The notes under the pieces are model-generated. The model was not told where the DNA came from. It did not search any database and was given only the letters and a program-made list of their open reading frames with translations. Positions 7,428 through 10,581 of a stretch of 15,549 bases of DNA are shown here, one piece after another (position 1 is the first letter of the stretch; each line of letters opens with the position of its first letter). The stretch comes from Thermoplasmata archaeon (GTDB lineage: Archaea; Thermoplasmatota; Thermoplasmata; Halarchaeoplasmatales; Halarchaeoplasmataceae): assembly GCA_019594195.1 (NCBI GenBank), contig JAFDTP010000041.1, positions 1 to 15,549 of the forward strand, given 5' to 3'. The translations under genes and the position numbers were made by a program.

Positions 7428-7501
7428 TGGGCTCAGCCGGGTTCGAACCGGCGACCTCCGCCATGTCAAGGCGACGTCATAACCAGCTAGACTATGAGCC
7501 C
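7428..7501 (-). tRNA. tRNA-Val (anticodon GAC)
   Basis: The 74-nt minus-strand sequence folds as a complete cloverleaf. Acceptor GGGCTCA pairs with TGAGCCC, followed by discriminator A. The D-stem is GTC/GAC around a loop containing TGGTT. The anticodon stem is TCGCC/GGCGG with loop TTGACAT, giving anticodon GAC, which reads GUC (and GUU) valine codons. The T-stem is GCCGG/CCGGC with loop TTCGAAC. CCA is not encoded. The tRNA is intact and intron-free, but its 5' end is embedded in a tandem repeat: its first 16 nt plus 8 nt of leader occur twice more upstream, and the strongest TATA box now lies about 210 bp away. Confidence 0.95.
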
Positions 7502-7528
7502 GTTGGCGAATATGTCTAGATGGGGACC

Positions 7529-7572
7529 ATGAGTCAAGCTTTGCTTGGTGAGCAAGAGGAATTTATTCCTCG
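7529..7572. other. Two inverted repeats in each 89-bp unit
   Basis: Within the first unit, CAAGC-TTT-GCTTG (5-bp stem, 3-nt loop) at about 7535-7547 is followed by GAGGAA-TTTA-TTCCTC (6-bp stem, 4-nt loop) at about 7556-7571. The second unit repeats both 89 bp further on. They are short but perfect and could fold in RNA from either strand. Whether this is a functional RNA, recombination-site architecture or chance is not decidable by eye. Confidence 0.5.
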
Positions 7573-7574
7573 TG

Positions 7575-7590
7575 GCTAGACTATGAGCCC
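7575..7590 (-). pseudogene. tRNA-Val 5' fragment, copy 2
   Basis: The minus strand reads GGGCTCATAGTCTAGC, identical to nt 1-16 of the intact tRNA (acceptor 5' strand and start of the D-arm), then diverges into CACGAGG. There is no remaining tRNA body, so it cannot fold as a tRNA. Confidence 0.85.
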
Positions 7591-7663
7591 GTTGGCGAAT
7601 ATGTCTAGATGGGGACCATGAGTCAAGCTTTGCTTGGTGAGCAAGAGGAATTTATTCCTCGTG

Positions 7664-7679
7664 GCTAGACTATGAGCCC
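7664..7679 (-). pseudogene. tRNA-Val 5' fragment, outermost copy
   Basis: A third identical 16-nt tRNA 5' fragment, with the same 8-nt flank. Beyond it the sequence leaves the repeat and reaches a strong TATA box. Because the promoter spacing is normal from here, this is probably the original position of the tRNA 5' end. Confidence 0.8.
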
Positions 7680-7688
7680 GTTGGCGAC

Positions 7689-7710: not shown

Positions 7711-7720
7711 TTATATATCT
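7711..7720 (-). promoter_or_regulatory. TATA box upstream of the tRNA-Val array
   Basis: The minus strand reads AGATATATAA. Transcription starting about 26 bp downstream, near 7689, would give a leader of about 10 nt before the outermost tRNA fragment (5' base at 7679), a normal archaeal tRNA arrangement. The intact tRNA starts 178 bp further downstream. Confidence 0.6.
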
Positions 7721-10010: not shown

Positions 10011-10041
10011 TAATAGATTGATTTATTGATTGGTGATAAAT

Positions 10042-10581
10042 TTGAATGAAGAAGGACCAATAGATGAAGGCGGTCCAAGAGAAGACACTGGACAGGGAGA
10101 TTGGTCAGAACAGCAACCACCACAACAGCAGCCTCCACAGCAACAGCAACCACAACGTCAAGTACAACGTCCTCCACGACGTGGTTTTTTGGAGGGCTTG
10201 ACAAGCAATGATGGCCTAGCAAAGGTTATAACAATCGGGTTCGTCCTACTGCTGGTCGGGATGTTGATCATCCATGCTGCACCGTTCGCAACAAATTATG
10301 ACGGTGACGATATATACGGTGACGAGGACGATGATGAAGATACAGGTCTAACCCCTAGAGAGCAACAGGATGATGAGGCGTTCGAGAACGCTATGGAGTA
10401 TACTGGACAGATCATCAGAGATATCGGTATATTCTTAGTAGGTCTGTTCCTGGTACTAGGCGGTATATACAGGGATGATCTAGATAATAAATACAGGATG
10501 GTCATGGTTTCGGTCGCTATACTGTTCATACTTGTGGCCTGGTTCGGTTTCCTCACAGCGATCCCGGTCGCTCCAGTCTAG
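10042..10581 (+). CDS. Three-TM protein with Gln/Pro-rich N-terminus, paralog 2
   Basis: The product has 179 residues from TTG 10042. This start is chosen because it aligns with ATG 9393 of the first paralog (LNEEGPIDEGG against MDEGGQIGEDS) and has GGTGA at the same distance; earlier TTG/GTG codons at 10030 and 10033 overlap the ribosome binding site. Residues 1-50 are acidic then Gln/Pro-rich (QQPPQQQPPQQQQPQRQVQRPPRR). Helices lie at about 61-82, 126-145 and 152-174. Unlike paralog 1 it has an extra acidic loop between helices 1 and 2 (DGDDIYGDEDDDEDTG). No family is recognised. It converges with the zinc-ribbon gene across a 26-bp gap. Confidence 0.78.
   Translation: MNEEGPIDEGGPREDTGQGDWSEQQPPQQQPPQQQQPQRQVQRPPRRGFLEGLTSNDGLAKVITIGFVLLLVGMLIIHAAPFATNYDGDDIYGDEDDDEDTGLTPREQQDDEAFENAMEYTGQIIRDIGIFLVGLFLVLGGIYRDDLDNKYRMVMVSVAILFILVAWFGFLTAIPVAPV

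Follow-up and report, generated by a model that had tools for sequence, protein, structure and literature searches.

The tandem array upstream of the tRNA-Val(GAC) gene in the 15,549-nt stretch of archaeal DNA analysed here (the window) is read by us, with slightly better than even confidence, as a tRNA-linked double-hairpin element that is present twice in tandem within what is presumably the leader of that gene. The element would have originated by insertion or fold-back copying and been amplified by later recombination. It is possibly an undescribed kind of tRNA-linked hairpin element. In the archaeal group concerned, apparently one of salt lakes, a good share of the tRNA genes is adjoined by hairpin repeats built from the genes' own ends.

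The array was delimited by Tandem Repeats Finder as a perfect repeat at 7486-7687 (period 89, 2.3 copies, 100% matches, no indels). A repeat search of the window found two identical 89-nt units and a 24-nt repeat present three times, at 7486, 7575 and 7664, with 100% identity and spacings of 89 and 89. The 24-mer, read on the minus strand, consists of the 8 leader nt TCGCCAAC and then GGGCTCATAGTCTAGC (tRNA nt 1-16). These searches confirmed the initial annotation, which had described three copies of nt 1-16 of tRNA-Val(GAC) plus 8 bp of leader at an 89-bp period, separated by two identical 65-bp inserts. Two exact 89-bp copies and a third 24-bp copy cannot have arisen by chance. The 65-bp insert is not uniform. 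On the tRNA strand its first 53 nt comprise a double hairpin, with the potential hairpins GAGGAA..TTCCTC and CAAGC..GCTTG, and end in GACTCATGGTCCCC, which is partly complementary to the tRNA 5' end. The remaining 12 nt, together with the 8-nt leader, make up a 20-nt linker whose end is TCGCCAAC. The order of a unit on the tRNA strand is thus X (GGGCTCATAGTCTAGC, tRNA nt 1-16), hairpin 1, hairpin 2, X' and linker. X' is an imperfect complement of X, in that GACTCATGGTCCC is able to pair imperfectly with GGGCTCATAGTC; whether this complementarity is cognate was judged by permutation over 24 units. The insert alone folded only mildly better than shuffled sequence (z -1.74). The array is flanked by the intact tRNA on one side and a TATA-like box on the other, and it is this box that suggests a promoter and transcription of the array. 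The features are as follows.

7428..7501, minus strand: intact tRNA-Val(GAC) gene (7501..7428 as read; ARAGORN; Rfam RF00005, 64.9 bits)
7502..7521, minus strand: proximal linker, including the 8-nt leader TCGCCAAC that adjoins the tRNA (from the sequence; 14/20 identical to the related genome G004)
7522..7574, minus strand: proximal unit, double hairpin (H) and X', the latter at 7522-7535 (GACTCATGGTCCCC, partial complement of tRNA nt 1-12); 50/53 identical to G004
7529-7573, minus strand: match of covariance model R1 in the proximal unit, 51.9 bits; the window is itself one of the 14 rows of R1
7575..7590, minus strand: X, proximal extra copy of tRNA nt 1-16 (repeat search, Tandem Repeats Finder)
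7591..7610, minus strand: distal linker, identical copy of 7502-7521
7611..7663, minus strand: distal unit, double hairpin (H) and X' (7611-7624), identical copy of the proximal unit; R1 match at 7618-7662, 51.9 bits
7664..7679, minus strand: X, distal copy of tRNA nt 1-16, closest to the TATA-like box (repeat search; locus comparison)
7680..7687, minus strand: copy of the 8-nt leader (TCGCCAAC) upstream of the distal X (repeat search)
7711..7719, minus strand: TATA-like box GATATATAA, 40 nt before the first X, presumed promoter; similar boxes at loci L049 and L002
7796..9337, plus strand: Elp3-like gene (radical SAM/GNAT), synteny anchor outside the element (Pfam; related-locus search)

Elsewhere in the window, a 15-bp repeat (3.2 copies, 78% matches) at 10109-10156 falls within the ORF at 10030-10581, in its N-terminal region, which is rich in glutamine and proline. 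The window also carries a Tpt1/KptA-like RNA 2'-phosphotransferase gene (1905-2468) in addition to the Elp3-like gene.

Simpler readings of the array were rejected. Plain tandem duplication of the tRNA locus accounts for the second unit and not for the first. A split or spliced tRNA, or an archaeal tRNA intron (BHB) with the first X as an exon, disagrees with the complete downstream tRNA and with the divergence of some upstream X copies. A known RNA family was set aside because nothing but the tRNA reached the Rfam gathering score in the array region.

Double hairpins were collected with a regular expression and a folding-energy filter from the flanks of 177 tRNA genes, which yielded 23. Twenty of these were aligned with the window and L049 by MAFFT; because MAFFT shifted hairpin 1 arms of unequal length, only 12 of the 20 were kept with the window and L049 (14 rows). 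The structure pairs 91.4% of the cells of this alignment, a figure favoured by the filter used in selection. The covariation score was 0.374, compared with a shuffle mean of 0.133 (sd 0.023), and was reached by none of 500 shuffles; the measures least prone to relatedness were weaker (7 pairs versus 4.8, 18/500; 14 further types versus 11.0, 23/500), and all of these scores refer to a set chosen by regular expression, energy filter and hand. The family pattern, GGAA..TTCC in hairpin 1, CTC, hairpin 2 and often TTCGT, recurs across tRNAs and genomes. The double hairpin measures about 45 bp, and the family is detected by a single covariance model, R1.

In the window, R1 matched only the two units, at 51.9 bits each. 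When 150 candidates were scored per genome, R1 gave 44 matches in six of six genomes of the order to which G004 belongs and none in three of three genomes outside it. For five of the order genomes a tRNA list was available, and 27 of their 36 matches lay within 600 bp of a tRNA, where about one was expected from a zone of about 2.4% of the genome; the 8 matches of G018 were left uncounted, and clustered matches are not independent. A dispersed REP/MITE-like hairpin repeat was accordingly rejected, since matches cluster at tRNAs, though the other 9 of the 36 have no listed tRNA within 600 bp. One of these nine, at G010:C173 (L302), is accompanied by a tRNA-Ala-like 3' strand near the contig start, and one, at G009:C128, is at a contig end. 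Also among the nine are two double-hairpin copies at L319 (G010:C6:644-687 and 1373-1416), which sit in a non-tRNA inverted repeat, CCACCAGTC..GACTGGTGG. At L038 (G001:C76:9455-9545) there are two tandem double hairpins, and no tRNA was found in the 3-kb locus.

Relatives of the window were reached through the neighbouring Elp3-like gene, which gave 36 loci. The best four by identity (L001, L002, L003 and L007) are 63-73% identical and belong to Thermoplasmata/Thermoplasmatota records, whose isolate names suggest Great Salt Lake and soda-lake sediments. Comparison of the tRNA-Val(GAC) locus, as proposed in the initial annotation, gave a mixed picture: in G004, the genome of L007, the tRNA adjoins the start of an Elp3-like reading frame (by reading) and is preceded by exactly one unit; L002 and L003 carry tRNA-Val(GAC) beside Elp3 and lack the array; and L001 has no tRNA at the Elp3 locus. 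Part of what the initial annotation named as refuting its reading thus applies, the 65 bp being flanking sequence of long standing in one relative, G004. Between the window and G004, identity was 73/74 for the tRNA, 66/69 for the unit core, 50/53 for the H-X' part and 14/20 for the linker. The upstream 60 nt were 41/64 identical, above the best of 300 shuffles, and the trailer, at 36/71, was at shuffle level. The three differences in the core all lie outside the stems (by reading). Given that the unit core is conserved nearly to the level of the tRNA while the trailer is at shuffle level, the insert is old, and constrained or otherwise protected. What distinguishes the window from G004 is the second, identical unit. 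The order of G004 may be the hypersaline Ca. Haloplasmatales (PWKY01; PMC11287216).

The distance from the TATA-like box to the first X is 40 nt in the window and 42 nt at L049, the one-unit locus of G004, and in the empty locus L002 the box stands 43 nt from the tRNA. A tRNA-Val(CAC) pair behaves alike, with 49 nt from box to first copy in the filled L065 and 49 nt from box to tRNA in the empty L054. Since box distances are similar in filled and empty pairs, the first copy may occupy the former position of the tRNA 5' end, the intact tRNA having been displaced downstream; the argument is suggestive only, because other empty loci have longer spacings (L061, 64 nt; L056, 77 nt; L003, 84 nt) and the distance is not fixed. 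The earlier proposal that an element entered at the tRNA 5' end with a direct repeat and was then amplified fits these spacings, as well as the one unit of G004 versus the two of the window.

The order of G004 is represented by 16 genomes, in several of which tRNA-Val loci have units. Four of them were tested for copies of tRNA ends, with 30/36 (G004), 29/30 (G009), 30/36 (G013) and 30/37 (G010) tRNA matches taken; G006, from outside the 16, served as a control (30/44 taken). In the 5' test, an exact copy of the tRNA's own nt 1-10 was sought within 350 nt upstream, and loci with less than 150 nt of flank were dropped. Such a cognate copy was found at 26/111 tRNA loci (G004 5/27, G009 10/26, G013 5/29, G010 6/29) versus 11/3163 non-cognate comparisons. 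In the 3' test, a 10-mer from the tRNA's own 3' end was sought within 350 nt downstream and was found at 20/107 loci (G004 2/29, G009 7/27, G013 5/26, G010 6/25) versus 25/3058 non-cognate comparisons. The control G006 had no cognate end copies, either upstream (0/30) or downstream (0/30). None of the 26 upstream and 20 downstream copies lay solely inside a listed neighbouring tRNA gene. In these four genomes, a tRNA gene is accompanied by copies of its own ends far more often than by copies of another tRNA's ends. Against the reading as a general feature, the majority of the tRNAs covered show no cognate copy by this criterion. In G009, G010 and G013, a number of tRNA matches fall within a few hundred bp of contig starts, as if flanking repeats had broken the assemblies.

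Local alignment with permutation gave the same result for direct copies, the upstream and downstream signals each being reached by 0/5000 permutations. Inverted 3' copies downstream were likewise reached by 0/5000; inverted 5' copies, reached by 52/5000, were the weakest signal of this broad test. For G006, the four tests were reached by 821 to 1396 of 5000. Among 24 upstream units of at most 135 nt, X' paired with its own X better than with the X of others (0/20000 permutations), with related units of several genomes counted apart and with three units (L106, L110 and L159) below the non-cognate mean for their X. A cruder ranking by raw energy, X against unit bodies, gave a median rank fraction of 0.33 and is only suggestive.

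Unit number varies: two in the window (as assembled), one in G004 and three at tRNA-Ala(GGC) of G013. At tRNA-Ala loci there are up to three units, with differing hairpins and linkers in differing orders. Two Ala loci of G018 (L274 and L285) have an identical last unit, which points to exchange of units by recombination among Ala loci. Hairpin loops occur in a filled form (L275 and L286, 69 nt; L268, 70 nt) and an empty form (L274, L285 and L291, 22 nt), the difference being a 44-bp double hairpin and a repeated GAT; the units compared come from different genomes and isoacceptors and are not strict orthologs. The hairpin with the 22-nt loop occurs twice in L291. Ala copies with hairpins in the T-loop lie upstream of intact genes at L115, L273, L279 and L290 (by reading). 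A fresh-looking case is L306 (G018), where a tRNA-like 3' end and its trailer are perfectly duplicated over 29 bp in direct orientation, with a 15-nt inverted T-arm copy, also perfect, enclosed between the two. Neither ARAGORN nor Rfam at its gathering score called a tRNA at L306; we read it as a tRNA because it shares an identical 24-nt stretch at the 3' end with L163, one of the G013 tRNA matches.

The direct and inverted cognate copies suggest an insertion event in which the tRNA end was copied, with recombination between the X repeats coming later. The element would have entered the tRNA gene just after nt 16, by insertion or by fold-back (template-switch) copying. Entry would have duplicated the leader and tRNA nt 1-16, so that an intact tRNA was re-formed downstream, with X' left behind as an inverted copy of the tRNA end. 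Unequal recombination or slippage between X repeats would later have produced the second, identical unit. In the precursor tRNA, the units would fold as hairpins; by pairing with the extra X, X' would stop this copy from rivalling the true 5' end in pairing with the 3' strand of the acceptor stem, and RNase P would then remove the whole leader. Against this sequestration, the minimum-free-energy fold of the whole leader of the window pairs the first X with the tRNA 3' end and not with its X'. No enzyme able to move the element was identified.

An alternative that we consider unlikely, though deserving of weight, is that the units are modules of a selected leader RNA, namely a processing signal, a folding insulator or the precursor of a tRNA 5' fragment. 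The conservation of the unit core between the window and G004 argues for this reading, as do the covarying stems, with the selection bias and the weaker strict measures given above. However, covariation of palindromes can also arise by hairpin-templated correction. The presence of units is moreover patchy: the syntenic loci L002 and L003 have no array, and the exact nt 1-10 test gave no upstream cognate copy at 85/111 tRNA loci. In Haloferax, Val-tRF, a 26-nt 5' fragment of tRNA-Val(GAC), is described as binding ribosomes in the part of PMC3544259 available, and this H. volcanii fragment cautions that 5' fragments of tRNA-Val can be functional. Here, X has 16 nt and not 26, and since many isoacceptors are affected, a Val-specific role is no explanation.

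It is also possible, and in our view rather improbable, that the arrays are purely mutational products of repeated template switching and slippage at tRNA hairpins, with neither an element nor a function behind them. This would suit X and X' being cognate at both tRNA ends, and L306, whose perfect direct and inverted copies are what fold-back copying would leave. Hairpins are also not plentiful at a distance from tRNAs. Over 367 kb of G013 there were 1.19 per kb within 600 bp of ARAGORN tRNAs (a small sample, 10 in 8.4 kb) and 0.41 per kb beyond (148); after mononucleotide shuffling, the whole 367 kb gave 120. What such a process leaves unexplained is the same double-hairpin family, found by one covariance model, at different tRNAs and in different genomes, and the outside genome G006, which has tRNA genes yet none of these copies.

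The attachment-site part of the initial annotation was not supported. Under that reading the 24-bp repeat is the att core of a tyrosine-recombinase element and the 65 bp its relic or a minimal integrated element, which we regard as very improbable. As at archaeal att sites, the direct repeat overlaps a tRNA end and an intact tRNA is restored (PMC8371274 and PMC9897764, as far as their available parts go); for pTN3-like archaeal integrases the target is the 5' half of tRNA genes (PMC8371274, available part), and partial tRNA copies commonly come from integration (PMC9897764, available part). In contrast to such sites, neither an integrase nor kb-scale cargo was seen: the Pfam scan of 10 window proteins gave no integrase, the upstream units, 57-266 bp among the examples listed, are too small to encode one, and the Thermococcaceae cases span about 9-23 kb in the accessible portion of PMC9897764. 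An att model would not predict the complement of the tRNA 5' end that the insert contains. Nor is the array a one-off scar of this kind, since the arrangement, with its tRNA-end complements, recurs at different tRNA genes, several isoacceptors among them, and at both tRNA ends. The array had no match in phage or plasmid collections, and a 47-bp exact pattern from it had none in viral contigs.

That the second unit is a mis-assembled duplicate is scarcely credible. The 100% identity of the units would suit it, as would the position of several tRNA matches at contig ends in related genomes, but multi-unit arrays with non-identical units occur elsewhere (L147, L291 and L284), and the single unit is corroborated by G004, so that copy number is the only thing an artefact could affect.

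Returning to the tRNA-linked double-hairpin element, we found no description of cognate tRNA-end hairpin arrays in the open-licence literature searched. A close comparison is with the double-hairpin elements (DHEs) of fungal mitochondria, which, in the available parts of PMC4618339 and PMC10085805, are two adjacent stem-loops, potentially mobile and in some cases within or beside RNA genes. The array resembles them in its two adjacent stem-loops and in a structure conserved despite sequence change (0/500; stricter measures 18/500 and 23/500, with selection bias), and the filled and empty loops described above may bear on DHE-like mobility, with three loci of each form that are not strict orthologs. 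Unlike the mitochondrial DHEs, it resides on an archaeal chromosome, is concentrated at tRNA genes, is flanked by direct and inverted copies of the end of the tRNA it adjoins and forms tandem arrays in a presumed pre-tRNA leader. Because its residence is archaeal and not mitochondrial, the array may be said to work like a DHE, a comparison made by description and not by sequence, and not to be one.

Among archaeal repeats, the SMR-A of Haloquadratum walsbyi are short, transposase-free and insert within palindromes of other elements; according to the available part of PMC3119063, they are about 110 bp long, have terminal inverted repeats, make no target duplication and target PATE/IS605 palindromes. 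By reading, double hairpins are placed in the hairpin loops of Ala units and within T-loop copies, which may be a comparable position. They differ from SMR-A in being about 45 bp long, in lying at tRNA genes and in being flanked by direct duplications of 24 bp (window) and 29 bp (L306). Hairpin families in sponge mtDNA occupy spacers, including those upstream of tRNA genes, and a placozoan one lies inside a tRNA gene; copying of cognate tRNA ends is not mentioned in the available parts of these sources (PMC2800124, PMC7813641). DHEs, sponge and placozoan hairpins, SMRs and att duplications each share part of the arrangement, and none is described with cognate direct and inverted copies of tRNA ends in the portions of the sources available.

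More widely, R1 was run with stricter filters over 116 genomes drawn from the phylum and gave matches in G004 and in three genomes outside the order. At L336 a double hairpin immediately precedes a tRNA recognised by Rfam; at L324 and L328 double hairpins precede sequences that we read as tRNAs and that no tool calls. At L326 (G030:C42:11331-11378) a double hairpin lies in the putative D-loop of one tRNA copy, with an uninterrupted copy alongside, and again no tool calls a tRNA. L333 and L335 have HgcG-like H/ACA RNA matches of 59 and 69 bits, below the gathering score of 77, and at L335 hairpin modules follow the HgcG-like match. In G049 and G040, hairpin runs reach right up to the starts of tRNAs or tRNA-like sequences (L328, L329, L332 and L336), among which Rfam calls only the tRNA in L336. 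G049 also has long hairpin inserts in the anticodon region of tRNA-like sequences. L330 and L331, both of G049, have R1 matches in spacer DNA with no tRNA seen, which counts against strict tRNA linkage.

We put forward a wider reading tentatively, at somewhat less than even confidence: a new class of tRNA-linked repeats that take their ends from the target. Such a repeat would carry a direct and an inverted copy of the adjacent tRNA end, re-make the tRNA that it interrupts, be transcribed as tRNA-mimicking hairpins in the leader or trailer of the precursor tRNA, and spread or be exchanged among tRNA genes through the copied ends. With related double hairpins also present in three further genomes of the Thermoplasmatota, where they adjoin tRNA, tRNA-like and HgcG-like RNA genes and lie in a putative tRNA D-loop, it would be a more general parasite or module of stable-RNA genes. 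The frequent position of tRNA genes at contig ends in these assemblies may be due to the array family, which is also a source of partial tRNA-like sequences. tRNA genes are classic landing sites of mobile DNA, which as a rule arrives there with an integrase and a matching core sequence. The repeats described here are tiny non-coding hairpins, present at many tRNA genes and each carrying copies of the end of the gene it adjoins. If they are a self-templating element, this would be a new way of invading an essential gene without breaking it; if they are a selected RNA, they would add an unknown layer to the maturation of archaeal pre-tRNA.
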